DNA of 20,226 nt from a virus, in the IMG/VR virus record IMGVR_UViG_3300037189_018569, positions 1 through 20,226 of that record; one strand, given 5' to 3'. The stretch's first letter is position 1; every line of letters starts with the position of its first letter. Positions 2-14,348 of this stretch are shown one piece after another. Both the position numbers and the translations under genes were made by a program. The notes beneath the pieces are model-generated. The model ran no database searches. It worked only from the letters and a program-made list of their open reading frames with translations, and was not told the DNA's origin.

Positions 2-1288
2 GTAGCTTTGTATCAAGAGCAATTAATGAAGATGGCTCATAAAATTGGATTCACCTTAGATGAAGCAGAAATTTTAAGAAGAATTGTAGGTAAAAAGAAA
101 ACCGAAGAAATTAAAGCTTGGAAAAAGAAGATCGAAGATAAGATTAAAGAAAATAAACTTCCAAAAGAAGTAGGGGAAATCTTATGGAAAATCTTGGAGG
201 ATTCAGCGAACTATTCATTTAATAAATCACATTCAATCGCTTATGCAGCTTTAGCCGCGATTACTATTTATTTAAAATTCAACTATCCTCAACAATTCTT
301 TTTATCTCTACTAAAGATGACTAGAAATGAACCAGATCCAATTGGTGAAATATCTAAAATTCAAAAAGAAATGGGTCACTTTGATATTAAATTATTAAAA
401 CCTCATATCATTAAATCTCAGATGGATTTTTCAATAGAAGGCTCTGATATTAGATTTGGATTATTATCAATTAAAGGTATTTCAGATAAGTCAATTGAGA
501 AGTTAAATGGATTTAGAAACAAGTACTCCAATAAGTTTGAAATTTTTCAAGCAGCAGAAGAAGCAGATCTTAACATCGGAGTATTATGTTCGTTGATTCA
601 AGCTGGAGCTTTAACTGGATTTAAACAATCTAGAAGTAAAATAGTATTAGAAGCTCAACTTTGGAATATATTAACATCAAAAGAAAAGAAATATGCAATT
701 TCATTTGCCGAACAATTTGATTATGATCTTATTAGAATCATTAAACATTTAAATACATTTACTGATGAAAAGAATAAAGTTATAATTAAGAGCTCTAGAT
801 TAGATACAATTAAAACTAAATACGAACCCTACCTTAAAATATACAATCAAAATAGCAAGAGCGAAAGTTTTGCTAATTGGTATTATGAAAAAAGACTTTT
901 AGGCTATACTTACGAAAGAACATTAAAAGATATCTTTAATGAAAAGAGAGAAGATTTATTGTTTATTGATGAAATCATGGATTTGCCAGTAAATCAAAAA
1001 GTAGCATTAGTTGGAGAAGTTACTGATGTACATTCTGGTATATCAAAGAACGAGAAGAAAACCAAATATCTAAGACTTAAAGTTTCAGACGAATCTGGCG
1101 ATATTACTGTATTATTATTTAATGATAAGATAGAAAATTGCAAAACCTTGAATGGAAATAAGAATCCAGAGGAAAAGAATATTGTAATAGTCAAAGGTAT
1201 TAAAAAAGAAGACTGCATATTTGCTGATTTAGTAGCCGTTCAAGATCATCAAATATATATGAAATTAAGCGAAATTAAAAAGATTTGA
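2..1288 (+). CDS. dnaE: DNA polymerase III alpha subunit (DnaE-type), C-terminal part, 5' truncated by window edge
   Basis: This is the C-terminal part of a replicative C-family DNA polymerase. The reading frame is open to the left edge; the TTG at 8 is an internal Leu codon in the conserved stretch LYQEQLMKMA, so the real start and the palm catalytic aspartates lie outside the window. Visible landmarks are RRIVGKKK and SFNKSHSIAYAALAAITIYL (the fingers region, matching the bacterial 'AHA..YA..AY.TAWLK' block), a helix-hairpin-helix-like LLSIKGISDKSIEKL near residues 155-170 of the visible part, and a C-terminal OB-fold (about residues 330-415, starting VALVGEVTDV). This matches the DnaE layout. 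It is followed after 31 nt by a small candidate ssDNA-binding gene, consistent with a phage replication module. The family call is very likely correct; whether it replaces the host polymerase is inference. Confidence 0.93.
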   Translation, partial: VALYQEQLMKMAHKIGFTLDEAEILRRIVGKKKTEEIKAWKKKIEDKIKENKLPKEVGEILWKILEDSANYSFNKSHSIAYAALAAITIYLKFNYPQQFFLSLLKMTRNEPDPIGEISKIQKEMGHFDIKLLKPHIIKSQMDFSIEGSDIRFGLLSIKGISDKSIEKLNGFRNKYSNKFEIFQAAEEADLNIGVLCSLIQAGALTGFKQSRSKIVLEAQLWNILTSKEKKYAISFAEQFDYDLIRIIKHLNTFTDEKNKVIIKSSRLDTIKTKYEPYLKIYNQNSKSESFANWYYEKRLLGYTYERTLKDIFNEKREDLLFIDEIMDLPVNQKVALVGEVTDVHSGISKNEKKTKYLRLKVSDESGDITVLLFNDKIENCKTLNGNKNPEEKNIVIVKGIKKEDCIFADLVAVQDHQIYMKLSEIKKI

Positions 1289-1319: not shown

Positions 1320-1871
1320 ATGATATCATTCTACAAACCTAATAGTAAAAATACTGGAACCGCTTGCAGTTTTACAGTAAATTCAAAAGATGCTTCTATT
1401 TGGAGCTCATTAATTAAACAATCTTCTTGGAATGAAGTTAAGAAAATTGGCTCATTTTCTGAAAATCAAAATAATCCAAACAAAAGTGTTAAGATCAAGT
1501 TTTCTTTAACAGAAGCTGCTGGTCTTTTAGACGCTCTTGAAAGAAATACCGAATTTTCTGCATATCACACATCAGAAAAACAATCTACACAAATTAAATT
1601 ATCTCCATATATTAGAGAAGATAAACAAGTTGGATTCTCTTATATGGTATCTAAAACAGATAAACAAAATAGTGAAAATAAACAATCATATTTAATTGGT
1701 TTTTATTTTAATGAGGCTCGCTTGCTAAAGCAATTTTTATCTTATGCATTAGATTCCGTTTTTGAATGTCAAAGAATAGAAACAATTAAAAAACTTAAAA
1801 ACTCTAAAAAAGAAGATAACGACGAAAATCAAAACGATGCCAAAACTGATAATGATGGCGAACTTTGGTAA
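1320..1871 (+). CDS. Small candidate ssDNA-binding protein with acidic C-terminal tail
   Basis: This 183-residue soluble protein has no signal peptide or membrane segment. I do not recognise the family with certainty. Residues about 55-155 alternate beta-like stretches (VKIKFSLTEAAGLL, TQIKLSPYI, SYLIGFYF) with a helix (ARLLKQFLSYAL), a pattern reminiscent of small PC4/Whirly-like nucleic-acid-binding folds. The last 25 or so residues are Asp/Glu/Asn-rich and end DGELW, that is, an acidic tail with a hydrophobic tip as in bacterial SSB and T7 gp2.5, where the tip recruits replication partners. It lies between the polymerase gene and a glycosyltransferase and overlaps the latter by one base (TAATG). 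The ATG at 1320 has no Shine-Dalgarno sequence but follows an A/T-rich stretch. The ssDNA-binding role is inferred from tail and position, not from a proven domain match. Confidence 0.6.
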   Translation: MISFYKPNSKNTGTACSFTVNSKDASIWSSLIKQSSWNEVKKIGSFSENQNNPNKSVKIKFSLTEAAGLLDALERNTEFSAYHTSEKQSTQIKLSPYIREDKQVGFSYMVSKTDKQNSENKQSYLIGFYFNEARLLKQFLSYALDSVFECQRIETIKKLKNSKKEDNDENQNDAKTDNDGELW

Positions 1872-3793
1872 TGTCTAGAAAAAAGAAATTTTTATATCAT
1901 TCAGATTTTGCTTTAGCCAAAACAGGTTTTGGTAGAGTTTCTAAATCTTTATTAACTTATTTATATAAAACTGGTAAGTATGATATCGTGCATTATTGCT
2001 GCGGTATGCAAGAAGGAAATCCAGATTTATTAAAGACCCCTTGGAAATCTTTAGGTGCTCTTCCAAATTCTCAAGCAGAAATAGAACAATTAAATAAAGA
2101 TCCAAACCAAGCTAGAATGGCTAGTTATGGCTCATATTACATAGATAAAGTTATAGAGCAAGAAAAGCCAGATGTTTATATTGCTGCGCAGGATATTTGG
2201 GGGGTAGATTATAGCATATCTAAACCTTGGTTCAAAAAAATTAAATCTTCAATTTGGACAACTTTAGATTCTTTACCTATCCTACCTACAGCTGTAGCTT
2301 GCGCTCCAAAATTAAAACATTATTGGATTTGGAGCGATTTTGCGACAAAAGCTCTACATGAAATTGGACATAAGCATATAGATACAATGCACGGCCCTAT
2401 TGACGTTAATAGTTTTTATAAATTATCACAAGACGAAAGAAGGGATTTAAGAATTAAAAATAACATTTCTCCGAATGCCTTTATTATTGGATTTGTTTTT
2501 AGAAATCAACTTAGAAAAAGCGTACCAAATTTATTAGAAGGTTACGCTCTATGGAAAGCCAGAAATCCAGAAGTAAAAAATACATATTTATTGTTGCATA
2601 CTCATTGGTCTGAGGGTTGGAATATATATAAATTAGCAGATGAATATGGAATCCCAAAGAGCGAAATTTTAACAACTTATGTATGTAAAGTTTGCGGAAA
2701 TTATGAAATTAAAAATTTTACAGGACAAGAGTTAGATTGTAAATTTTGTGGAGCACAAAAAGCGCAGATTACAACAAATGTTGGACTTGGAGTATCAGAG
2801 GCTCAACTTAATGAAGTTTACAATTTAATGGATGTATATTGTCATCCATTTACAAGTGGAGGACAAGAGATACCTATTCAAGAAGCAAAGCTCACAGAGC
2901 TAATCACTTTAGTTACGAATTATAGTTGCGGTGAAGAAATGTGTTACGAAGAAGCTAATTCTCTAGCTTTAGATTGGTCGGAATACAGAGAGCATGGAAC
3001 TGAATTTAGAAAAGCTTCTACAATACCAAGTTCTATCGCAAAACAACTTCAAAAGGTTTGGAAAATGCCTATTCAAAAAAGAATAGAAATGGGAAAAGCC
3101 GCAAGAGAATGGACTATAAATAATTACTCTTCTGAGGTTATTGGCAAAAAATTTGAAGATTTTATTGATTCTGCAGAGTATATAGATTATAAAAATTTCT
3201 CAATTCAAGCAGAAGACCAAGATCCACTTTTCAATGTTCCTAAAATAGATAATGATTCTGAATGGTTAAAATGTTTATATGCTAATATCTTAAAAAGACC
3301 AGATGTAGACGAAAACGACGATGGCCATAAATACTGGATGCAAGAATTAGGAAAAGGCAAAAAACGAGAAGAGATTGAAAACTATTTTAGACAAGTAGCT
3401 TGGCAAGAGAATCAAAAAAATAAAAAAGTCAATTTTGAAGATCTTTTAGACAAAAATGATAAAGGCAAAAGAATATTATACGTTATTCCACAAGAAGAAT
3501 CAGACGTATTCTTAAGTACTAGTCTATTTCCTTCTATTAAAAATCTTTATCCAAACCATAATTTATATGTTGCCACAAAAAATGAATTTTTCGAAATATT
3601 AGATGGCAATCCTAATATTCATAAAGTAATACCTTTTGTTCCACAAATGGAAAATCAAATTTGGTGTGAAGGCAATAAAGATCACGAAGGTTATTTCGAT
3701 ATAGCATTTTTGCCCTACGTTGGAACACAAAAAATATTAAACTATTTACATAATGCTAAAGATAAAATTGAATTTGATATTAAGAATTTTTAA
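1871..3793 (+). CDS. GT4-type glycosyltransferase with zinc-ribbon insertion, DUF4214-like linker and N-terminal part of a GT9 domain
   Basis: The start chosen is ATG 1871, overlapping the upstream stop as TAATG; a TTG six bases earlier is in frame but less likely. The 640-residue protein opens with a GT-B N-lobe (FLYHSDFALAKTGFGRVSK). The C-lobe has GFVFRNQLRKSVPNLL and an E-x-x-x-x-E block in GGQEIPIQEAKLTE, typical of retaining GT4 enzymes. Four cysteines, C272/C275 and C290/C293 (CKVC...CKFC), form a treble-clef or zinc-ribbon-like insertion in the C-lobe. Residues about 462-515 (WLKCLYANILKRPD...YWMQEL) resemble DUF4214. From about residue 533 (RILYVIPQEESDVF) the sequence resembles the N-terminal half of GT9 heptosyltransferases and then stops mid-domain at a T-run; the rest is encoded in the next gene. 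The target glycan is unknown. Confidence 0.8.
   Translation: MSRKKKFLYHSDFALAKTGFGRVSKSLLTYLYKTGKYDIVHYCCGMQEGNPDLLKTPWKSLGALPNSQAEIEQLNKDPNQARMASYGSYYIDKVIEQEKPDVYIAAQDIWGVDYSISKPWFKKIKSSIWTTLDSLPILPTAVACAPKLKHYWIWSDFATKALHEIGHKHIDTMHGPIDVNSFYKLSQDERRDLRIKNNISPNAFIIGFVFRNQLRKSVPNLLEGYALWKARNPEVKNTYLLLHTHWSEGWNIYKLADEYGIPKSEILTTYVCKVCGNYEIKNFTGQELDCKFCGAQKAQITTNVGLGVSEAQLNEVYNLMDVYCHPFTSGGQEIPIQEAKLTELITLVTNYSCGEEMCYEEANSLALDWSEYREHGTEFRKASTIPSSIAKQLQKVWKMPIQKRIEMGKAAREWTINNYSSEVIGKKFEDFIDSAEYIDYKNFSIQAEDQDPLFNVPKIDNDSEWLKCLYANILKRPDVDENDDGHKYWMQELGKGKKREEIENYFRQVAWQENQKNKKVNFEDLLDKNDKGKRILYVIPQEESDVFLSTSLFPSIKNLYPNHNLYVATKNEFFEILDGNPNIHKVIPFVPQMENQIWCEGNKDHEGYFDIAFLPYVGTQKILNYLHNAKDKIEFDIKNF
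3787..3791 (+). other. T5 run at the break in the GT9 domain: possible frameshift or indel site
   Basis: Five Ts lie directly on the stop codon that ends the first glycosyltransferase ORF (codons AAT TTT TAA). One extra T, or a -1 slip of the Phe codon on the stop, would continue ...NF into LIYIMHTLESF and join both GT9 halves into one protein of about 1,028 residues. The junction TAATATATATTATG also resembles other gene starts in this genome, so true separation into two genes is equally possible. Confidence 0.4.
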
Positions 3794-3801
3794 TATATAT
3801 T

Positions 3802-4956
3802 ATGCATACTTTAGAATCATTTGCAACATCTTGTGGAGTTAAAATCAATAGACCATATATTTATGAAAAATATTATCCATTAAATTTTGATAAATACATT
3901 ATATTAGACACAAACGATAACAAAGCCCCAGCTAAAAATTACGATTACTGGCAAGAAGTAGTTAATCTTATTCTTCCAGAATTAAATAAAGCTAATATTA
4001 AAATACTACAAACTTGTGCGCAAAATGATCTAAAATTACTAAATGCTTATACAGTTATTGGCGAGACATATAATCAAAAAGCATATTTAATTAAAAATGC
4101 TCAATTATACGCAGGTTCTAATAACTTTGGTATTCAACTAGCCTCTTATTTAAATAAGAAAACTGTAGCTTTATATGGTAATATCTATGCTGCTCAAAAT
4201 AAGCCTTATTGGAGTAAAGATCAGGACATTGTTCTTATTGAAGGATTTGAAAAAGGTAAGCCATCTTACGCTGCTCAAGAACAACCCAAATTAATTAACG
4301 AAATTAAACCAGATAAAATTGCAGAAGCTATTCTCAATAAATTAGATATCAAGCCTAATGTAAAATATAAATTTACAAACATTGGATTAAATTTTAATAC
4401 TAAAACTATAGAGATGTTGCCAACAATGATAGTTAACACTCAGGCATTTAATGTTCCTCATATTATAGTTAGAATGGATTTACATTTTAGTGAAATTGTA
4501 TTGGAAACAGAATTAGCGCAAAATAAATGTATTATCGTAACAGAAAAAAGTATATCAGAAGAGATAATCAAAAAGTATAGAGCAAACATTGTTCAAATCA
4601 TCTATAAAATAGACAAAGACAATAATCCAAACTTTATTAAATTATTAAAAAGTTTGAATATCCAATATGGGCTAATGTCCGATTTAGAGCAAGAAGAGAT
4701 TGATAAAATTAAAATAAATTATATGGATTTAGGTTTAATTATAAAAGCTCAAACCAAGACTAAAAAAGATTTTAATGTTAAAGGTAAATACTACAAAAGT
4801 AATCGTTTTATATTAAGTGATAATAAGTTATACATGAGCGAAGCTGCTGTAGAAAAAGATTTACCTATTAAAGATTTTAATGAAAATATCCAAGAGATAA
4901 TTGACACAGATACATTTTGGAAATATGCAGAAAATTATGCTTTTTTAGTTGACTAG
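3802..4956 (+). CDS. C-terminal part of GT9 (heptosyltransferase-like) domain plus unknown C-terminal domain
   Basis: The 384-residue protein starts MHTLESFATSCGV, which is where an intact GT9 protein would continue after the break in the previous ORF. Residues 30-160 carry the nucleotide-sugar-binding lobe of GT9: a beta strand YIILDTND, then AQLYAGSNNFGIQLASYLNKKTVALYG, matching the GT9 'D/GSn.G..HLA...g..tialyG' signature. Residues about 190-384 form a second region I do not recognise, rich in Lys, Ile and Asn. Without the N-lobe this protein alone should not be a complete glycosyltransferase, so it probably acts with, or is fused to, the preceding product. There is no Shine-Dalgarno sequence; the start follows an A/T-only leader of 8 nt after the upstream stop. 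Confidence 0.7.
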   Translation: MHTLESFATSCGVKINRPYIYEKYYPLNFDKYIILDTNDNKAPAKNYDYWQEVVNLILPELNKANIKILQTCAQNDLKLLNAYTVIGETYNQKAYLIKNAQLYAGSNNFGIQLASYLNKKTVALYGNIYAAQNKPYWSKDQDIVLIEGFEKGKPSYAAQEQPKLINEIKPDKIAEAILNKLDIKPNVKYKFTNIGLNFNTKTIEMLPTMIVNTQAFNVPHIIVRMDLHFSEIVLETELAQNKCIIVTEKSISEEIIKKYRANIVQIIYKIDKDNNPNFIKLLKSLNIQYGLMSDLEQEEIDKIKINYMDLGLIIKAQTKTKKDFNVKGKYYKSNRFILSDNKLYMSEAAVEKDLPIKDFNENIQEIIDTDTFWKYAENYAFLVD

Positions 4957-4960
4957 TTTA

Positions 4961-4968
4961 TATAAATA
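4961..4968 (+). promoter_or_regulatory. TATAAATA box, possible phage promoter
   Basis: The octamer TATAAATA lies 18 nt upstream of the ATG at 4986, in the only sizeable gap of the glycosyltransferase/recombination gene run. It equals the T4 late-promoter core, but in a genome this AT-rich it can occur by chance, and no sigma factor of that type is visible here. Confidence 0.25.
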
Positions 4969-4985
4969 GACTATCATTACTAATA

Positions 4986-5795
4986 ATGAGCCCAAAAATT
5001 AAACAACAAGATCAAACCTCTTCTATTGGAAGTTCGGCGCTTTTTGATACGAATATTATTCCGCAATTGGTTAATGAACCAGTACTAGAAGTAGTCCCAC
5101 CAAAACTTATTACCAGAAATAAGTATGGGTTAATTGAAGATAAAAATATCAATTACGTATATAATGATGATGCAACAATTAATTGGCGTAAAATGGTTAA
5201 ACAAGAATATCTTGTACCAAATAGACAAAAAACTCAAGAAACAGACGTATCTAAATTAGAAGATAAGGATTTACTTATTCTTTTAGGTGGCATAAAAGAA
5301 CTTGCTCAAATTAGAGGTTATACTAGCGTTGAATATAAAGTAGTTGCAGCTAGTGAAAATTACTTTGCTACATCTTGTAAAATTACATGGATTCCTAATT
5401 ATGAAACAAGTGGCAGAGTTATCGAGTTTGAAGCTCTTGCTGATGCCACTTTAAATAATACAAAGAGTTTTGCTAGATTCTTTTTAGCAGCGATTGCAGA
5501 GAATAGGGCATTCGTAAGATGTGTGCGTAATTTCCTAAAGATTAACATTGTGTCTCAAGAAGAACTTGGAGATGCTAAACTTTTAGAAGAAGCGGTTTCA
5601 TCAAATGAAAATCCAACTTCTCCTCAAGTACTACTTGAAAAAGTTATGAAAGATAAAGGCGTATCATTTGAATATCTAAAAGAAAAACTTGTAAAAGAAA
5701 AGTTCGAAGGAGCAGAAAGTTTAAGCTCCGTTCAAGATATTCAAAAGTCTAAAATTTTTGAGCTGATTGATAGAATTAAAAAAATTAAGAAATAA
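4986..5795 (+). CDS. Candidate Rad52-like single-strand annealing/recombination protein
   Basis: This is a 269-residue soluble protein. The core (about residues 85-200) reads LLILLGGIKELAQIRGY, then beta strands VEYKVVAASENYFATSCKI and GRVIEFEALADAT, then a helix AAIAENRAFVRCVRNFLKI followed by VSQEELG. This order, a beta sheet with 'A.AdAt' then a helix rich in small and basic residues around 'AEnRA..R..Rn.L', resembles phage and bacterial Rad52-type single-strand annealing proteins. The C-terminal 60 or so residues are charged and helical (LLEKVMKDKGVSFEYLKEKL), like the variable tail of such proteins. It ends the plus-strand run that also holds a polymerase and a candidate SSB, a common partnership for annealing proteins. 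The assignment rests on remembered motif shape only and could be wrong. Confidence 0.5.
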   Translation: MSPKIKQQDQTSSIGSSALFDTNIIPQLVNEPVLEVVPPKLITRNKYGLIEDKNINYVYNDDATINWRKMVKQEYLVPNRQKTQETDVSKLEDKDLLILLGGIKELAQIRGYTSVEYKVVAASENYFATSCKITWIPNYETSGRVIEFEALADATLNNTKSFARFFLAAIAENRAFVRCVRNFLKINIVSQEELGDAKLLEEAVSSNENPTSPQVLLEKVMKDKGVSFEYLKEKLVKEKFEGAESLSSVQDIQKSKIFELIDRIKKIKK

Positions 5796-5796
5796 T

Positions 5797-6654
5797 TTAT
5801 AATCCAGAAAGTGCAGATATCAGAGTATTCACTCTAGCTTTCAACAAAGTCATATCCAAGTATTCTCCTATAGAATAAAAAGCTATTCTTGCTGGCGCAC
5901 CTTCACTAAGGCTATTACTTAGATTGGCCCGACCAAAAACTAAATAATTTGTTGTTGCATCTGGAGTTACACTTGCTACACTAGAAAATGTAAAGCTTGA
6001 TGATGCTGGAGAAGTAGTAAGTGGATAATGCAGAGTATGTTGAGAAGTGCTATTTTTTGTAACACCATAGATACCTGCTACATGAGAAGAAGTTCCATAA
6101 GGAGTGAAAATTTGGCTTTGACTGGTTCTAGCGCCCGCACCCATTCCCAATGCTCCAGAAGTACCTTTAAAGAAAGCAATATGGGACAAACAAGTTGTTG
6201 GTGATCTTGCCCCAATAAGATAATAATAAGTAGCATTTAGCGGAATAGTATTACTATGATGATATACTGATAAATGAAAATTATTTTGAGGATCTGCATT
6301 ATGGGCTCTATTACTATTTAAATACTTAGTAGTACCATCACTTAAAAGACCAGTGCTTCTACTATAATCAGAAGATGTAAAAAAAAAGCTAGTTGGAGCA
6401 GTTCCTTTTAAGGGCACAAGAGCGCCATTTAAAGTTCTTGCGCCAGCAAGTATGCAACAACTTTTTATAGCATCCCATATTCCATCGCTTTTGCATCCAT
6501 CTATAAAATTATTAATAGCTGTTTTTACTGAAGACTCTAATGATTGACCATCAGCAGCCTCAACAGCAGCAATATATGTTGATGCTTCTGTTACAACAGA
6601 AATAGAACTTGAACGGCTTATAATTCCAAAAGAAACTGATGGTAATATTATCAT
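5797..6654 (-). CDS. Lectin-like tail fibre tip / receptor-binding candidate
   Basis: The 285-residue protein starts within the stop codon of J (ATGA overlap), so it is translated together with the tip protein. Residues about 33-80 include AADGQSLESSVKTAINNFIDGCK, IWDAIKSCCILAGARTL and LVPLKGTAPT; then come LLSDGTTKYLNSN and NADPQNNFHLSVY, and near the end IAFYSIGEYLDMTLL. This block order recurs at the ends of phage tail-fibre and appendage genes and looks like a concanavalin/LamG-type beta sandwich. A role in binding the host surface is inferred from that and from its place directly after J. It ends one base from the convergent plus-strand gene, with no clear terminator between them. Confidence 0.6.
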   Translation of the reverse strand: MIILPSVSFGIISRSSSISVVTEASTYIAAVEAADGQSLESSVKTAINNFIDGCKSDGIWDAIKSCCILAGARTLNGALVPLKGTAPTSFFFTSSDYSRSTGLLSDGTTKYLNSNRAHNADPQNNFHLSVYHHSNTIPLNATYYYLIGARSPTTCLSHIAFFKGTSGALGMGAGARTSQSQIFTPYGTSSHVAGIYGVTKNSTSQHTLHYPLTTSPASSSFTFSSVASVTPDATTNYLVFGRANLSNSLSEGAPARIAFYSIGEYLDMTLLKARVNTLISALSGL

Positions 6655-9600
6655 GCAGCTGTATTTCCGTACATTAAATATCCATTATTTCCTGTATGGA
6701 GTAGTGAAATTCCAGCATATTGTCCTGCTGTTTTATATTGATTATTATAACTATTAATTAATACTCCCACTCCAGAACCAGTGATTTGAATTTGTCCTGC
6801 TCCAATTTGAATTATTGAAGCGTTAAATCCTGTAACATTTCCACTTACTATTGTACCCGTAATTAATGTGGCTGAATTTGCAAGTATCATTCTTGCGTTT
6901 TGTGTTCCAGTAATATTAAAATGAGTAGAAACATTTAAAAGGTCTGGCGCAGCATTTATTATTTTTGAATTTTTTAAATCTATTCCAGAAGTAAATATAC
7001 CACTTCCGCTTACGGTTAAATTACCACTAACAATATCAAGTCCAGAAGAATTTATTCTTGCTACGGTATTATTTTGATTTGTGCCTCCAGCATGAAATTC
7101 TATAAATCTTCCAGGTGTTCTTGTTCCAATATCCAAATTTCCGCCATCAATAAATAAGTAACCATCAAAACCAGTTCCATTTGTAAATCCACCATCGTTA
7201 TATCCACTATTATTTATTCCAAGATTAATGTAATTACTTGAGTCTGTTCCATTATTAGCAGTGATAACTAAATCTGCGGTAGCATTACTTCCAGTTGCAG
7301 CGTTTTGAATATTAACTTGAACATAAGTATTGCCACTTCCTATAATTGAAAGTGGATTACTTGGTAATTTCACTCCAGAAGCACCCGAAAGTGAAAATAC
7401 TCCAGAATTAAAAATACTTAAAGTACCACTAGGATTAATATTAATATTTGCACCAGTTAAATTAATATCTCTTAAAATACCAGAATTAGTTTGTTGCGTA
7501 CCAATTAGTAAGTTATTATTTTCCCAACCAAAAATACCATACTCTCCAGTATTTGTGCCAGTTTTATTGAATACTTTTAAATTTTGTGGATTACCACTAT
7601 TAATAATATTTATTCCAGTTGCAAAAGTTTTGATTCCAGAAATAGTTTGATTACCATATTTAAGAACTGCGTCACCACTTAAGGAAATTAAATTTCCACT
7701 GACTGTATCTATCCCCGTTTGCAAATAACCACTCATCGCTAGAACTTCCGCAGTATTTAAAACATTACTTAATGTGCCAGTTACTCCAATTGGTCCATTA
7801 GTAGCCCAACTTAATGCTAAAATTTGATTTGTTAATTTTCTATTCAATCTTACTCTATCTAAAGGCACTTGATTTCCTGGATTTGGAAATCTAAAAAATG
7901 GATCTTGATCTAAAAATGTATAATCTCTGTCATATCCAGTAAATGTGAACCATTCATTAATTAATGTATCGTAAGGCTTTATGTTAACGTAACCACTTTT
8001 AATAGGATTTCCATTATTAGAAAAAGATGAATTAGTTGAAAATACATTATCTGTTCCCATGTACATTTCTCTAACTTGAACTCCACTACTATATAATTCT
8101 GCTACCCAACTTTTAGTTTCGTCTGATAAAGCTTGATTTATGATTGAAGTGATATTCGCTTCTTGAAGCATGCTTTCTTTTGTTTCACTATAAAATACAA
8201 AACCGCCCCTAATATCAGGGTATAAAGCTTTTAATCCTGGAGTAGATAAATTAAAATTATTATCTGCAGTAAGACCTACATTAATACTATAATCACCATC
8301 TAAAGGAGGTTTAAGATCAAAAGATACATTATCATTTTGAAAATATCCTACTAAATAACCATCTGCATTTGTAAATCTATTAGAAGCTGGAGTTGATTGA
8401 GATGTCCATTTTCCTGCTGCGCCTGTTCGAGAATCTATAGCTATATAAAAACTGTTAATTGGTAAAGTAGCAAAAAAATTCAATCCACTATTGTTTGTAT
8501 TATTTGGATATACCGAATAACTTATATTTGCCCCATTGTTTTCAGCAAATCCAGTAAATGTAGATGTATAGATATTATTTTCAGAAAAAGTACCAGTTAT
8601 ATAATCAATTCTAAATTCAAGATCTTTTGCTTTCCAAGTTTTTAATAAAGGATATAAATTATTAATTCTCCAAGCTAAATTTATTCCATAATCTCTAAAC
8701 TTATTTGCAGTAAGTAAATTTGAACTTACACCACTTAAGCTATCAAGGGTTGTTGAATATTGAAAATTACTTAATGTAATAAAATTTGTAGCATCATTTA
8801 AATTTGCATTTGAAAAAGTTATAGGATTAGGGGATCCAGCAAGATAACCATTTGAAATATACCCATAACTATTTATTCCATAAGCTCTAAAATAATAATT
8901 TCCATTCACCGCATCTAGTCCAAAAGAAGAAGATGGATTTGTAACTACTATTGAGCCAATTTGAAAATCGTTTTTTGGAGCTTGTATTGAGTTTCCTTGA
9001 TTATTATAAAAAACAGTAGTAAGATCACCAGCATTAAAATCACTACCAGTCTTAGCAAAAATTTTCCAATAGGTCGTTTCTCTTGCTCCTGGTCCACTAG
9101 TTGGTTGAGTTTGAGCTCCAATTACTCCACTTATTCTTAATTGATTTGTATACGAAGTTAAGTTAAAAGAAGAGGGCGTTCCTGCATCAAGAATTGTTGT
9201 GCTTCCAGGATCCACTGGTGGAGCTTCTGAAAGAGAAATTCCAGATTCAATTGATGAATATTTAGAAGGATTGTATTCAATTGCATTAATATTAAATTTA
9301 TGAGATTCATTTTCTGTTATACTTATTACTTTAAATAATTCAGTTTCTGGAGTTAGATAAAAATTACCTGCACTACCAGTTTGTTCAATAGTCCAAACGG
9401 TTCCAGTTGTTAAAGCGTAGTTAGTTGTATCGAATAATTTATTACAAGTAAGTCTTGTTATTGCTCTGTCTGGAGTAGGGTTATATCCAGAAATTCCACT
9501 TATATTGTTTATAGAAAATAAGCCAGTTTGTATTTCGGATCTTTGATATCCAGTAAGAAAATCATTAAAAGTTGTTCCAGTAGTTTTATGCGTAGGAGTT

Positions 9601-11948
9601 AAAATATTAAATTTATATCGCGCAGCAGAAACACCATTTAAATAACCAGTTAAATCTGAATATGGTTGATCTAGAATAAATTCGTGAGAAGATGGTGTGG
9701 TTTTAATTCCTAAAATTCTTCCACCTAATCGATCTACTGTTCTATTACTATCCTGAATTTTTACTATATCTCCAGGATTTAAATATAAAGCATCATATCC
9801 TACTGTAAAATTAACTGTTTCTGTTTCATATTGCTCACTAGCTAACGCCCATTTTCCAATTCTATAAGCTTGACCGCGACTCGTACATCCAAAAGCAGTA
9901 ATTTCAATTTTTCTAACTCCATATTTTCTTAAACCTTCTGGATCTTCTGCGTATTCTATAGTTGGTTTTGCGAAATTAGACATATCATTCCATCTAACTA
10001 CTGCAACAGTATTTCTTACTTTTCTACTGCTACTTGAATAAATAAATTCTCCATTTTCTACACTACTATTAGTAAATAAAGTCGATGCCTCTTTTGGCAT
10101 ATCTGCTGTAGCGTATATTAATCCATTAGCATAATAAGATAACCCTCTAAAAATACTTGCAAAATCATTTACCAAAGTAAATGCATCAGAGAAGTCGTTA
10201 ATAACTGTATTACATGTAAATCTTGGTTCTAGTCCTCCAATACTATATCCATCTGAAACAAGAGTGTCGCAGTATCTCGCAATTTGATAAAGATTCCATT
10301 TGTCAACATCATAATTTTTAATATACTTTCCTAATCCATATCTACTATTCGTGAGTAAGTCGTAATAACACCAAGCTGGATTATCTGTCCAATATAAACC
10401 TACAGGTAAGAACTGATGAGAAACATCAGAAAATTGACCATCCCAATCTCCATTGTATGTTTTTCTAATTGGATCGTAATTACTTGGTATTTTTACTTTT
10501 AATAATCTAACATCATAAGCCCTTGGTGGAACTTGACTAAAGTATTCAGTAGTAAATAAACTTTTAAACATTGCAACTTTTGGATATATAAATTTTTCTG
10601 CAAAAATTTCAGTAATAGTTGCTACACTAGCAACATCTCTTAAATTTATAACTTTAGATTCTGCAGATGTTCTAGTAATCTCTACTCTCCAACCGATAAA
10701 GGAAGATTCTTCCGTATTTATATTATAAAAAGAAGAAACATCAAAATCAAATCTATGTAAAAATCCACTCGTTACTTTACCAGTACTAGAATCATCTCTA
10801 TTTATAACTAAATTTTCAGAAAATCCAGATGAACTATTGTAACTTAATTTTTTAATTTTAAAATTATAAGTGATTGTTCTATCTCGAATATCACCAACCG
10901 TTGTGGATTGTTTATAGCCTCCAGGATAATCAGCTCGATCTAAATTAGGATCATTTTGTTGGTCATATAAAGAGTCAATTTTAATTGCTACAATAATTTT
11001 ATTTACATTTTTTGATCTTAAATCAATTACTTTCTTAAAATCCGATCCATATCTTAAAGGTTCATTAATATTTAATGTTCGTGAAGCATAAGGTAAGGAA
11101 TCATAGGTATTTGTAGGCGTTAAATTATTCAAATTACTTTGTAAAAAATTCGCAGTTGTTTGAGTTCCATAATCTGCTCTAAAATTAATAGATGTATAAT
11201 TAAAATTTCCTGCATCATCAATTAATGGAACTTGCTTCCAATAAACTGATCTTAATTGTGGATTGCTTCCAGCGTAAGAAGCAAAATTCGCGGTTGTCCA
11301 TCCTACATTTCCAAGCGTACCATTATAACTATAACTACCAGACACTAAACCTTCGATTGGTCCTTCGCAAACTAAATCTGAAACTTCTGTTTCTGTTCTT
11401 GAAAGTTTTTTTGCCCCCTCTACAACAACACCTTCTTCAGCTTCTACTGGAGTGTGAGGTGGAGGCGGAGGCGGAGGAGGCGGTGGTGGTGGAGGTGATC
11501 TTCCTCCTTTGTTATGCACAAATATATCTTCTGCAATATAAGTATTATATTTTTCTACAGTAAAATTATAAACAGTAGAATCATTATTGATAATTTCTAT
11601 ATGATCTATTTTTATTCTTTCACCAAATCTATCTACAATCAAATCATCTGTAGTAAAATTTGCAATTTCAATAAATTCATTATTTTGATTTAAAAAAGGA
11701 TGGTTTGGAGTAGTTCGAATTTTTTTATCTTTAAAAAATACATCAATAACTTTTTCATTATTATGTATGAAAACATTTTCAACTGTACTAATTTTTATAG
11801 ATAAATCTTTATCAAAACAAAATACCGAATCTCCAATTTTAATATCTTCAATATTTTTATATCCAAAAGGTGTATATATTTTTGTTCCAGCGACAAAACA
11901 TCCTGCGCCTTTAATTAATTCATTAGGTAAAATATATTTTTTACTCAT
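6651..11948 (-). CDS. J: Tail tip attachment protein J (host specificity), with N-terminal Hint domain
   Basis: At 1,765 residues it is much larger than lambda gpJ (about 1,130). Conserved J landmarks are VCEGPIEGL (about 193-201), IPSNYDPIRKTYNGDWDG, NPAWCYYDLLTNSRYGLGKY followed by VDKWNLYQIARYCD, and ITAFGCTSRGQAYRIGKWAL followed by LNPGDIVKI (about 680-730). These form the hub at the tip of the tail. The N-terminus is unusual: MSKKYILPNELIKGAG, then a Hint domain (17-146), then KGGRS and 13 prolines (152-164). After the hub come fibronectin-like beta domains. The last 350 or so residues are fibre-like, rich in Ser, Gly and Asn, with ISGIKTF, LTVSGSGIFTSGIDLKNSKI and similar repeats, and probably trimerise. 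It starts 3 nt after gene I and overlaps the following fibre-tip gene as ATGA. Confidence 0.93.
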   Translation of the reverse strand: MSKKYILPNELIKGAGCFVAGTKIYTPFGYKNIEDIKIGDSVFCFDKDLSIKISTVENVFIHNNEKVIDVFFKDKKIRTTPNHPFLNQNNEFIEIANFTTDDLIVDRFGERIKIDHIEIINNDSTVYNFTVEKYNTYIAEDIFVHNKGGRSPPPPPPPPPPPPPHTPVEAEEGVVVEGAKKLSRTETEVSDLVCEGPIEGLVSGSYSYNGTLGNVGWTTANFASYAGSNPQLRSVYWKQVPLIDDAGNFNYTSINFRADYGTQTTANFLQSNLNNLTPTNTYDSLPYASRTLNINEPLRYGSDFKKVIDLRSKNVNKIIVAIKIDSLYDQQNDPNLDRADYPGGYKQSTTVGDIRDRTITYNFKIKKLSYNSSSGFSENLVINRDDSSTGKVTSGFLHRFDFDVSSFYNINTEESSFIGWRVEITRTSAESKVINLRDVASVATITEIFAEKFIYPKVAMFKSLFTTEYFSQVPPRAYDVRLLKVKIPSNYDPIRKTYNGDWDGQFSDVSHQFLPVGLYWTDNPAWCYYDLLTNSRYGLGKYIKNYDVDKWNLYQIARYCDTLVSDGYSIGGLEPRFTCNTVINDFSDAFTLVNDFASIFRGLSYYANGLIYATADMPKEASTLFTNSSVENGEFIYSSSSRKVRNTVAVVRWNDMSNFAKPTIEYAEDPEGLRKYGVRKIEITAFGCTSRGQAYRIGKWALASEQYETETVNFTVGYDALYLNPGDIVKIQDSNRTVDRLGGRILGIKTTPSSHEFILDQPYSDLTGYLNGVSAARYKFNILTPTHKTTGTTFNDFLTGYQRSEIQTGLFSINNISGISGYNPTPDRAITRLTCNKLFDTTNYALTTGTVWTIEQTGSAGNFYLTPETELFKVISITENESHKFNINAIEYNPSKYSSIESGISLSEAPPVDPGSTTILDAGTPSSFNLTSYTNQLRISGVIGAQTQPTSGPGARETTYWKIFAKTGSDFNAGDLTTVFYNNQGNSIQAPKNDFQIGSIVVTNPSSSFGLDAVNGNYYFRAYGINSYGYISNGYLAGSPNPITFSNANLNDATNFITLSNFQYSTTLDSLSGVSSNLLTANKFRDYGINLAWRINNLYPLLKTWKAKDLEFRIDYITGTFSENNIYTSTFTGFAENNGANISYSVYPNNTNNSGLNFFATLPINSFYIAIDSRTGAAGKWTSQSTPASNRFTNADGYLVGYFQNDNVSFDLKPPLDGDYSINVGLTADNNFNLSTPGLKALYPDIRGGFVFYSETKESMLQEANITSIINQALSDETKSWVAELYSSGVQVREMYMGTDNVFSTNSSFSNNGNPIKSGYVNIKPYDTLINEWFTFTGYDRDYTFLDQDPFFRFPNPGNQVPLDRVRLNRKLTNQILALSWATNGPIGVTGTLSNVLNTAEVLAMSGYLQTGIDTVSGNLISLSGDAVLKYGNQTISGIKTFATGINIINSGNPQNLKVFNKTGTNTGEYGIFGWENNNLLIGTQQTNSGILRDINLTGANININPSGTLSIFNSGVFSLSGASGVKLPSNPLSIIGSGNTYVQVNIQNAATGSNATADLVITANNGTDSSNYINLGINNSGYNDGGFTNGTGFDGYLFIDGGNLDIGTRTPGRFIEFHAGGTNQNNTVARINSSGLDIVSGNLTVSGSGIFTSGIDLKNSKIINAAPDLLNVSTHFNITGTQNARMILANSATLITGTIVSGNVTGFNASIIQIGAGQIQITGSGVGVLINSYNNQYKTAGQYAGISLLHTGNNGYLMYGNTAA
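11457..11495 (-). repeat. Run of 13 proline codons in J
   Basis: Thirteen consecutive CCN codons (mixed CCT, CCA and CCG) encode Pro152-Pro164, immediately after the Hint domain and the KGGRS linker. Mixed codons indicate selection on the protein rather than simple slippage. The tract is the most GC-rich short stretch seen in this AT-rich window. Such a run should stall ribosomes and depend on elongation factor P, and would form a stiff rod. Confidence 0.9.
11511..11900 (-). other. Hint (intein-like / BIL-like) self-processing domain inside J
   Basis: Residues 17-146 of J form a complete 130-residue Hint domain without a homing endonuclease. Block A starts at Cys17 (CFVAGTKIYTPFGYKNIEDI, then KIGD). 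Block B is TPNHPFL with T80 and H83 in the T-x-x-H arrangement. Blocks F and G are VYNFTVEKYNTY, then IFVHN with penultimate His145 and terminal Asn146. The next residue is Lys147, not the Cys/Ser/Thr needed for intein splicing. This resembles bacterial intein-like (BIL) domains, known to cleave at one or both ends rather than splice cleanly. Flanks GAG and KGGR match the Gly-rich N-terminal linker usual in J proteins. Domain identity is very likely; its activity is inference. Confidence 0.92.
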
Positions 11949-11951
11949 ATA

Positions 11952-12644
11952 TTATGTTGTACGTTGATCTGAAGATGATGGAACATAATTATTATTGTAA
12001 GAGGCAGATATAGTTTTTGATCCAATTAATAATCTTCCGTATCCTATTGGAATTGGTCCACCCTCTCCAGCTGTATTAGATGGTCCATCAAAAAGATAAG
12101 ATTTTCCACCACCACCTTTTGCACTGGCTACGTCTGGTGCAGAAAATTCTGGAGCAAGATAAGGAGGCGGAGAAGATAATAAAGAAGCAAATCCTGCTGC
12201 TGCAAGACCAATACCTCCTATAATTAAACCTACTCCCAGAGGAGCAGCGGCACCAGTAGCAATTAAAACGACTCCTACAACTATCAGAGCAATACCAAAT
12301 ATTGCTCCGAAAAAACCTCCACCACCTCCAGCGCCTTCAATTATGGGTATTATATCTATGCTTTTTAATTCATCATCTTCAAATTTAGTCATTAAATTTG
12401 AATTAAACACCCTATCAAAATCGTCTTTAATTTCTTCTTCATTCTTGAAACATTTAAAATCTCTTTTGTTGATTAGAACTCTATATTTTATGTTTTCTTT
12501 ATCTAATTCTTTTAAATTTTTATAAAAAATTTGAGTATTCGCTTCAATAGCTCTTATTGCCTCTGAAACACTATTAACACTTAATGACCAATTATTTTTT
12601 TTAATTTTTTCTCCAATTATACCATGTAGTTGTATGTTTACCAT
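11952..12644 (-). CDS. I: Tail assembly protein I
   Basis: The 230-residue homologue of lambda gpI is placed, as in lambda, between L and J. The N-terminal 100 residues are soluble (VNIQLHGIIGEKI, SVSEAIRAIEANTQIFYKNL), followed by a Gly/Ala-rich hydrophobic stretch at about 107-165 (GAGGGGGFFGAIFGIALIVV...), characteristic of gpI. The C-terminus KSYLFDGPSNTAGEGGPIPIGYGRLLIGSKTISA matches the conserved 'fdGp.N...qG.piPi.YGr..vGS' ending. It is needed for tail-tip assembly in lambda and is thought to be absent from the finished virion. The ATG follows an A/T-rich 17-nt gap with no Shine-Dalgarno sequence. Gene K (a NlpC/P60-type peptidase), usual between L and I, is absent here. Confidence 0.88.
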   Translation of the reverse strand: MVNIQLHGIIGEKIKKNNWSLSVNSVSEAIRAIEANTQIFYKNLKELDKENIKYRVLINKRDFKCFKNEEEIKDDFDRVFNSNLMTKFEDDELKSIDIIPIIEGAGGGGGFFGAIFGIALIVVGVVLIATGAAAPLGVGLIIGGIGLAAAGFASLLSSPPPYLAPEFSAPDVASAKGGGGKSYLFDGPSNTAGEGGPIPIGYGRLLIGSKTISASYNNNYVPSSSDQRTT

Positions 12645-12661
12645 ATAATATATTCCATTTA

Positions 12662-13777
12662 TTATACTGATTTTACTGTAGATGGGAATCCTCCAAATGG
12701 AATTCCATCTGGATGCGAACTGGTATATCTTTTTCTACATCCGCTTAATCTTTTCGTACATAGATCTTGATACCAGTAATTTTTATCTGTTGGTGGATAA
12801 ATTGCACTGTTTAGACTATTTATTTTTGCAACAAAATAATATTTGCACCCATTAATATTTATAAAACAAAATTGCCCTTTATTGTATACTCCAGGACTAG
12901 CAGAATTCCATTCTTGTGGAGATCCAGGAGTAATAGCTACTCCTAATAATGTACTAATTATTTCATCTTTATCCGTAGCAACTGGGTATCCATTAGCTGG
13001 ATTTTGAGAATTATAAACGTTATTTCCGTATTCACAACCACTTCCTCTATATTCAAAACTACAAGATTCAGAATATATAGTTCTTAATGGTAATTTAATA
13101 TTTTCTAAATCTAAAGCTGAACTCATTTCGTATTCAATAAGATTTTTAGATTCTCTTAGTTTTCTGTCTATATAAAAAATATCTGAAGGTAATTCCGCTA
13201 AAGAATCTGGATCAATTGCAAGATTATCATCATTTATAATTCCTCCATTACTTTTAAAATTAATTGCGTCTAAATATCTTAAAAATGTTCTTCGCCTCGT
13301 TACTTTTAAACCGATAATATCTCCCACAGATTTAATTGCATTTTTTATTGTTCTAAAGAAATAGTCATATTGACTAATATTATTTTGATTTGAAAAAGTT
13401 ATTTTAGGTTTTGGTAAAGTTCCTTTAGTTGCGGTTTCGTATCCTTCTACCATAATTGGGAATGGCAAGTATCTTTTTCCTTTCCAAATTAGTTGACCAA
13501 CTAATTGACCATTTAACAAACTTGAACTATAAGATTCTAAATTAATATCTAAATTATGAAATCTTAATATCCCATTATCATCTAAATTTACTAAACCTAA
13601 ATATGGATTTGGTATAGAAGCAGCGTAACTTAAATTATATAAATTTAAATCATTTTTTGCTTGAGCGATTTCTCTTAGATCCAATTCATAAAAACTAATT
13701 AAATTTGTAGGACTTAATTTTGATCTTTCTGTAAAGATTTTTTTAGTTCCAGCTTGTTGGTTTACATTTATACTCAT
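12662..13777 (-). CDS. L: Tail tip protein L (Fe-S cluster minor tail protein) with inserted carbohydrate-binding-like module
   Basis: The 371-residue protein matches lambda gpL, an iron-sulfur protein in the tail tip. Conserved parts include LISFYELDL near residue 26, FHNLDINL and WKGKRYLPFPIMVEGYE (about 73-113), the cysteine pair C239/C248 (CSFEYRGSGC), and a second pair C340/C347 (CTKRLSGC) before IPFGGFPS at the C-terminus. The pairs should ligate a cluster. Between them lies an extra segment (about 289-338: EWNSASPGVYNKGQFCF, YYFVAKIN, PPTDKNYW) resembling a CBM5/12-type module, with two more cysteines (C304, C311) that might form a disulfide. It starts one base after the stop of M (TAATATG), so translation is probably coupled. 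Confidence 0.9.
   Translation of the reverse strand: MSINVNQQAGTKKIFTERSKLSPTNLISFYELDLREIAQAKNDLNLYNLSYAASIPNPYLGLVNLDDNGILRFHNLDINLESYSSSLLNGQLVGQLIWKGKRYLPFPIMVEGYETATKGTLPKPKITFSNQNNISQYDYFFRTIKNAIKSVGDIIGLKVTRRRTFLRYLDAINFKSNGGIINDDNLAIDPDSLAELPSDIFYIDRKLRESKNLIEYEMSSALDLENIKLPLRTIYSESCSFEYRGSGCEYGNNVYNSQNPANGYPVATDKDEIISTLLGVAITPGSPQEWNSASPGVYNKGQFCFININGCKYYFVAKINSLNSAIYPPTDKNYWYQDLCTKRLSGCRKRYTSSHPDGIPFGGFPSTVKSV
12764..12913 (-). other. CBM5/12-like module inserted in tail-tip protein L
   Basis: About 50 residues between the two cysteine pairs of L show the pattern W-(x)n-Y-x-K-G-x-x-x-x-x-x-x-x-x-Y-Y-x-A-(x)n-P-P-x-D-x-x-Y-W, familiar from chitin/glycan-binding CBM5/12 modules. The assignment is by eye; ligand residues cannot be confirmed. 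Confidence 0.6.
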
Positions 13778-13778
13778 A

Positions 13779-14348
13779 TTATATATTTGAAGTCTCTATA
13801 AAAGTAGTAGATATATTATAATTATTAAAAAATACATATCTTATAGACCAATCTTCACAAATAAATCTTTTTGGAAAATTTTGCGAAGTACTGTCAAAAT
13901 TATATGGAAATGGTGCATCAAAGAAAAAATGTTGAGCCCCTCTTCTTTTACTTACAAAATGAGTTATTGCTCTTGTTTCTTGTTTATCTCTGCCTTCAAA
14001 TGTTAAGTTTAATTTTAGTAAAGTATTATTAATACCGTCTTCGGTTCTTTGTTCGTAACCATCACCAAATTTTACAAGATTCATTGATGGTTTAGATTGA
14101 ATTTCTGAAGCATAATTTGATACCCAAATGAATTCTGGAGCTGAAACTCCAGCAGCAAAAGCACTACTATAAGACCTATATCCTCCCCAATATGAATTAG
14201 CGGCCGAAGTAGGGGTATTACCAAAATTGTTATTAACTAGACTATAATAATATTGTCCATTTGATGATGGGTGATATACAATATCATTCTTACTGTAAGT
14301 AGTAGAATTACCATAAACGCTTACGTCATATATCGAAGATTCTGCCAT
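13779..14348 (-). CDS. M: Minor tail protein M with N-terminal carbohydrate-binding-like module
   Basis: The 189-residue protein contains, from about residue 88, the minor tail protein M core: VKFGDGYEQRTEDGINNTLLKL, then FVSKRRGAQHFFFDAPFPY, then KRFICEDWSIRYVF. This follows the 'fGdGYeQr...GiN' signature of the family. In lambda, M acts between the tape measure and L in building the tail tip. Residues 7-57 are an added module (YGNSTTYSKNDIVYH, GQYYYSLVNNNFGNTP, SYWGGY) of CBM5/12-like pattern, similar to the one inside L. A possible Shine-Dalgarno sequence (AGGAAAGG) lies about 9 nt upstream of the ATG, one of the few in the window. It is the first gene of the M-L-I-J run and diverges from the plus-strand gene at 14401. 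Confidence 0.88.
   Translation of the reverse strand: MAESSIYDVSVYGNSTTYSKNDIVYHPSSNGQYYYSLVNNNFGNTPTSAANSYWGGYRSYSSAFAAGVSAPEFIWVSNYASEIQSKPSMNLVKFGDGYEQRTEDGINNTLLKLNLTFEGRDKQETRAITHFVSKRRGAQHFFFDAPFPYNFDSTSQNFPKRFICEDWSIRYVFFNNYNISTTFIETSNI
14178..14330 (-). other. CBM5/12-like module at the N-terminus of M
   Basis: Residues 7-57 of M follow the pattern T-x-Y-x-K-x-D-I-V-Y-(x)n-Y-Y-x-S-(x)n-N-T-P-(x)n-Y-W, typical of small tail-associated glycan-binding modules. It ends about 30 residues before the conserved M core. Ligand unknown. Confidence 0.6.

Follow-up and report, generated by a model that had tools for sequence, protein, structure and literature searches.

The tail-tip operon and its Hint domain

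The window, i.e., the whole stretch of 20,226 nucleotides of viral DNA that was analyzed, carries the tail genes M, L, I and J in this order on one strand, which corresponds to a lambda-like tail-tip set. Outside of the Hint domain the product of the last gene is a lambda-type tail tip protein, as revealed by profile searches (phrog_31, E 1.2e-128; lambda_TipJ, E 8.1e-76; Phage-tail_3), and its J core domains together with the order of the tail operon place it among the lambda-type J proteins. It shares the J core, the gene order and the operon position with lambda gpJ; unlike the window J, lambda J and the J proteins of cultured phages among the matches examined are all devoid of a Hint domain. 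The following features were assigned:

13779..14348, minus strand: tail protein M (profile searches)
12662..13777, minus strand: tail protein L (profile searches)
11952..12644, minus strand: protein I, a tail assembly/plug protein (phrog_32, E 2.2e-35)
6651..11948, minus strand: tail tip protein J (host specificity protein), 1765 aa, with the Hint insertion inside (phrog_31, lambda_TipJ, Phage-tail_3)
11901..11948, minus strand: N-terminal flank of J (N-extein), residues 1-16, MSKKYILPNELIKGAG; its counterpart directly abuts the linker in the Hint-less relative L045
11511..11900, minus strand: Hint domain (type-A BIL-like), J residues 17-146, without homing endonuclease (profiles, phmmer, AlphaFold2, Foldseek)
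11898..11900, minus strand: codon of Cys17, the residue for the N-S acyl shift, invariant in alignments A1 and A4 and in 26/26 distinct Hints
11700..11711, minus strand: block B motif T80-P-N-H83, with T80, N82 and H83 invariant in alignment A4
11511..11516, minus strand: His145-Asn146, the residues for Asn cyclization (Asn146 at 11513-11511); Asn is invariant, His is replaced by Ser in 5/26 distinct relatives
11502..11510, minus strand: Lys147-Gly-Gly, the first three residues of the C-terminal flank (+1 to +3); all 26 distinct J Hints have KGG here
11439..11501, minus strand: poly-proline linker between Hint domain and J core (sequence)
9708..10175, minus strand: conserved J core, residues 592-747 (Phage-tail_3 match)

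Protein I of the window consists of an N-terminal ubiquitin-like fold, a glycine linker and hydrophobic helices and contains no Hint domain. The model of the whole protein was poor (pLDDT 54); its N-terminal part alone was usable with caution and, as a low-confidence model, matched the fold of Urm1/MoaD/SAMP proteins. In the lambda virion, protein I forms a plug within the tip and touches J (PMC10721106, PMC11101478). With 371 aa the window L exceeds both its Pfam match (91-258) and the 232-aa lambda L. No gpK-like gene was found between L and I in the ORF list and the profile searches of the window. On the opposite strand, at 1865-4956 (+) and 8-1288 (+), the tail genes are adjoined by glycosyltransferase-like ORFs, in which a DUF4214-like stretch occurs, and by sequence encoding the C-terminal part of a DnaE-type DNA polymerase III alpha subunit.

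An original prediction, made from the letters of the DNA, had placed a complete Hint domain at the N-terminus of J, and its coordinates and the motifs T80-P-N-H83, H145-N146 and K147-G-G proved to be exact. Profile searches and structure prediction bore out the identity of the domain as well. Pfam PT-HINT matched the N-terminus of J with E 9.9e-12 (score 45.7, cut-off 27.7), and the N- and C-terminal intein signatures of NCBIfam both exceeded their cut-offs. In a phmmer search against the PDB the best match was the BIL structure 2lwy (E 3.5e-13), followed by an intein with 5e-4. The AlphaFold2 model reached a pLDDT mostly above 90 across the domain; its top matches in Foldseek were BIL2 (6y75) and CthBIL (2lwy) with E 1e-10, BILs occupied ranks 1-5, and inteins came close behind. 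Since Pfam, NCBIfam, phmmer, AlphaFold2 and Foldseek agree, a chance match can be dismissed, and the horseshoe beta fold and the block A, B and G motifs assign the domain to the Hint superfamily. Three further contigs carry copies with 98-100% identity, so that the combination of Hint and J is not an assembly error. Within its 130 residues the profile search found splicing-domain motifs only and no homing endonuclease domain, which a mobile (homing) intein would carry. The G+C content of the Hint (21.5%) is lower than that of the J body (31.2%).

In sequence and structure the domain is nearer to known BILs than to inteins. With the type-A BIL of Clostridium thermocellum (2lwy) it has in common the fold (E 1e-10, TM 0.86 by target length), the block A Cys, the TxxH motif, the C-terminal His-Asn followed by a +1 residue other than Cys, Ser or Thr (H145-N146-K147, with Lys at +1 in 26/26 distinct J relatives), the lack of an endonuclease and a variable linker as site. 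It departs from type-A BILs, which have been described in variable regions of proteins from bacteria, by its recurrent site in a phage tail tip, by presence/absence alleles and horizontal exchange, and by the invariant Lys-Gly-Gly which follows the Hint in the phage J and in the hub protein described below. Class 1 mini-inteins (DnaB, gp41-1 and others) share the fold, Cys1, TxxH, HN and the insertion into a host protein. They carry Cys, Ser or Thr as first C-extein residue and mostly reside at conserved sites of DNA-metabolism proteins, whereas the J Hint is followed by Lys147 and is located in a flexible linker of a virion protein. Like an intein, it is a discrete insertion for which host alleles without it exist, and it is intein-like in these presence/absence alleles and in its discordant ancestry. 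As the sequence and fold are those of type-A BILs, and the +1 nucleophile and the endonuclease of mobile class 1 inteins are both lacking, we file the J Hint, on its sequence features, as a putative phage tail-tip branch of the type-A BIL domains.

Distribution, conservation and exchange among J proteins

Two samples of relatives were used, in which the domains were parsed by sequence motifs. A DNA scan with the pattern VHNKGGG yielded at least 78 new loci, at which the pattern, judged by eye, marks the end of a Hint in all but five (L144, L152, L159, L169, L178); among the matches listed, 26 of the 46 non-redundant loci encode J proteins. This pattern presupposes the +1 residue; another sample was therefore taken independently of the Hint, by the part of J downstream of the linker alone. 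It comprised 358 relatives, and in the best 80 of these the Hint was present in 38 and absent in 42 rows.

All of the 26 distinct J Hints keep Gly at -1, Cys1, TxxH, the terminal Asn and KGG. A free loss of catalytic residues among relatives, which the original prediction had named as evidence against itself, was thus not observed, and its non-nucleophilic +1 residue turned out to be a conserved rule: Cys, Ser or Thr did not occur at +1 in any of the 26, nor in any other tail-tip Hint examined (J, I, long-J, hub). The residue before the terminal Asn is His in 21/26 and Ser in 5/26 distinct J Hints. Across the J sample the Hint has a length of 129-135 aa. One J clade (L280-L285, L298) has a Hint of 135 residues that ends with Ser-Asn instead of His-Asn and retains the remaining catalytic residues.

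The relatives L005-L008 have kept the Hint with 78-84% identity (domain plus flanks), and the close J relatives L043, L044 and L045 have none. The J bodies of the sisters L005 (with Hint) and L045 (without) are 85-86% identical and their 5' DNA is nearly the same; the junctions read RGAG-[Hint]-KGGGGGSC and RGAG-GGGGGGQSC, respectively. This comparison identifies the Hint as an insertion into a glycine-rich linker. In Hint-less rows the linker is continuous, e.g., SGAKGGKGGGGG, and also GAKGGKGGGGG or GSKGGKGGGG. In a marine group (GAKGGKGGG) the +1 Lys appears to be the host linker's own; as a general rule this was rejected, because the window's Hint-less sisters L043, L044 and L045 contain no Lys in the linker and remote hub Hints do have the Lys.

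Hint-bearing J relatives derived exclusively from uncultured metagenomic contigs, and among the tblastn matches examined no J of a cultured phage contained a Hint. The candidate PseuP_222 was rejected since its alignment extends beyond the start of J into upstream sequence whose frame contains stops, and matches in Proteus and Vibrio are helicase inteins. Bacterial genomes contributed two Hint relatives, both outside of J. The literature searched, with most subscription journals outside it, contained no account of a Hint domain in J or I; similar proteins in databases may carry automatic 'Hint domain' names.

With a dN/dS of 0.2-0.3 the Hint is shown by its sequence to be under purifying selection. 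Among the window and L005-L008 its dS amounts to 0.34-0.50, about half the synonymous divergence of the flanking genes (gene I 0.74-1.13; most J segments 0.6-1.5); the pair L007-L140 shows the opposite order (Hint 1.07, gene I 0.50, J 0.45-0.71). All of these are Nei-Gojobori estimates near saturation, to be read as contrasts and not as dates. The lower dS of the Hint could partly reflect its composition (GC3 of 6% versus 12.5%), but its synonymous sites are not capped, since pairs with L140 reach a pS of 0.55. The J tree unites L007 and L140 at 100/99, and a Hint tree in which the two, picked from the J tree and the distances, are held as a clade was rejected by the AU test (p 0.039). The genealogy of the Hint is thus discordant with its flanking DNA, as expected for a mobile element, and from the dS contrast and the tree conflict it follows that the Hint was exchanged between phages separately from its flanks. 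Its presence changes about three times over the J tree (61 rows) and is stable across much of it, and mobility is therefore occasional.

Hint modules at other tail-tip sites

Protein I of L051-L054 and L058 also contains a Hint, 44-48% identical, with an N-terminal domain before and the hydrophobic plug after it and with Gly at +1. In L051-L054 it occupies the same protein I linker that lacks one in the window. In L051 protein I lies at about 4620-5942 and J further downstream. These five loci encode two Hints per tail operon, one in I and one in J, the latter being located between an N-terminal extension of 740-985 aa and the J core and followed by Met, Gly or Arg. The J extension of L053 includes a match to the Ig-like He_PIG.

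A third site is a hub protein which is I/J-like and whose start resembles the plug of I. Here the Hint begins at residue 2-6, preceded by 1-5 residues (MC, MGGS, MGGGS) and followed by KGG, and Hint-less hub homologs, including gp51 of Pelagibacter phage HTVC111P, have their Met start near the post-Hint position. In other hub homologs (L335, L336, L339, L349, L386) a different short N-terminal module, MKIYKKIV.DKD..IIEE.SYEY.GP...C(K)GGGG, stands in the place of the Hint, with a conserved Cys beside the glycine run. At all sites the Hint directly precedes a core domain, and the part in front varies from nothing to 985 aa. Tandem Hint domains were detected in L188, L193, L126, L059 and L065; those of L193 have glycine runs of about 16-22 residues behind their HNK motifs.

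The top fold match of the J Hint, BIL2 (6y75, 6tmm), originates from BUBL1 of Tetrahymena thermophila, where BILs are tied to ubiquitin-like domains. In the phages L051-L054 the Hint likewise comes after the N-terminal domain of protein I; a ubiquitin-like fold of this domain is judged from the window counterpart (low-confidence model). BUBL1 is a eukaryotic polyubiquitin locus for which isopeptide chemistry via Lys has been demonstrated, whereas the phage counterpart is known from sequence, and the window J, in contrast to BUBL-type proteins, has no ubiquitin-like domain directly before its Hint.

In many siphophages from the environment the host-recognition tip thus contains a BIL-type module; selection keeps it intact, it passes between phages without the help of an endonuclease, and it adjoins the core domains of two neighboring tail-tip proteins. 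The usual contexts are different ones, variable bacterial regions for BILs and mainly DNA-metabolism proteins for inteins.

Proposed self-processing of protein J

We consider it likely, if by no means certain, that this horizontally exchanged Hint of the type-A BIL kind removes itself post-translationally from the J linker, the N-terminal peptide being either released or re-joined. Cys17 would attack the carbonyl of Gly16 to give a thioester, and cyclization of Asn146 would free Lys147-Gly-Gly as new N-terminus of J. The peptide MSKKYILPNELIKGAG would then be released or re-joined to J, in the latter case by an attack of the freed Lys147 amine (alpha, or possibly side chain) on the thioester; with Cys, Ser or Thr lacking at +1, the formation of a branched ester as in class 1 inteins is precluded. 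We infer excision through Asn146 as the best reading because the kept residues serve N-S acyl shift and Asn cyclization. The protein from which these phages make their tail tips probably cuts itself and perhaps also re-joins its ends. If the Hint processes J, this would represent an autocatalytic step in tail-tip assembly that is unknown in lambda, and the mature ends would be wrongly predicted for J, I and hub proteins in many phages of marine and fresh waters.

In type-A BILs without a +1 nucleophile cleavage dominates, and splicing is possible if the freed amine reacts with the N-terminal thioester (PMC4031507; also PMC5874633); ligation by these domains is judged more negatively in PMC7765530. 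In Tetrahymena BIL2 (6y75) the amine of a Lys is used to make an isopeptide bond (PMC8616854). The original prediction had held that splicing needs Cys, Ser or Thr at +1, which in view of this ligation by type-A BILs is too strong. Its expectation of cleavage as the likely outcome is plausible from BIL biochemistry, while the continuous linker and the conserved N-terminal peptide leave room for ligation. The prediction also proposed that the domain could time tail assembly, serve as a checkpoint or transfer the peptide; it did not foresee that the module is mobile and recurs in protein I and in the hub protein.

To a reaction that ends with cleavage we assign close to an even chance. The Hint would in this case be an N-terminal pro-domain, mature J would be released from Lys147 on by cyclization of Asn146, and the N-terminal peptide plus Hint would be discarded or held non-covalently. 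The dominance of cleavage products in BILs points in this direction, as do the hub proteins with their 1-5 residues before the Hint and Hint-less homologs starting near the post-Hint position, and the constant place of the Hint upstream of core domains regardless of what precedes it. Lambda J itself presumably begins within the linker that holds the Hint here, which we count on the same side. The N-terminal peptide of J argues against cleavage only: P and G are invariant and I/V is conserved in it, in a sample whose search motif itself required P or A, I or V, and G, and its pooled pN/pS is 0.67 with and 0.63 without a Hint. Since it is equally conserved in both, this suggests that the peptide is still needed as a part of J.

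This conserved peptide fits in with splicing in the absence of Cys, Ser or Thr, which we regard as a tentative but serious possibility. The amine or side chain of Lys147 would attack the Gly16-Cys17 thioester, mature J would equal the Hint-less form, and the module would be an endonuclease-free, intein-like passenger. The insertion site, a linker continuous in sister proteins, agrees with it, and so does the +1 Lys, invariant in J and remote hub Hints and missing from the linker of the window's Hint-less sisters; precedents are the ligating type-A BILs (PMC4031507) and the Lys-dependent BIL2 (PMC8616854). On the other hand, splicing without a +1 nucleophile tends to be inefficient, the Hints of I and long J have Gly, Met or Arg at +1, and re-joining makes little sense with an N-terminal flank of 1-5 residues. 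The invariant +1 Lys renders nucleophile-free splicing directly testable on a small construct.

A Hint that remains within J as a folded accessory domain, or that has no enzymatic activity in this setting, seems unlikely. A linker could carry a passive domain and the penultimate His is lost in some relatives, yet the near-perfect conservation of Cys1, TxxH and Asn and the low dN/dS are unexpected for a passive domain. A more speculative proposal, which we consider improbable, is that tail-tip Hints make up a distinct family which links or transfers protein segments via an amine (+1 Lys in J and hub) without Cys, Ser or Thr; following the ubiquitin-like domain of protein I, the Hint would produce an activated ubiquitin-like C-terminus and act as an enzyme-free, BUBL-like conjugation device. 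A replacement of the lambda tail protease gpK by the Hint as maturation enzyme, in line with the absence of a gpK-like gene from L to I in the window, is very improbable, because the Hint-less L043 likewise passes from L directly to I, L263 and L272 (one Hint-less, one Hint-bearing) are similar in upstream gene content with an NlpC/JAB gene in neither, and ORF layouts look alike in 16 and 16 relatives.

A deviating form was noticed at L180:409-1443 (minus), where a Hint-like domain ends with HN-KGGG and seemingly lacks Cys1 and TxxH; judged by these motifs it could be a form capable of C-terminal cleavage only.
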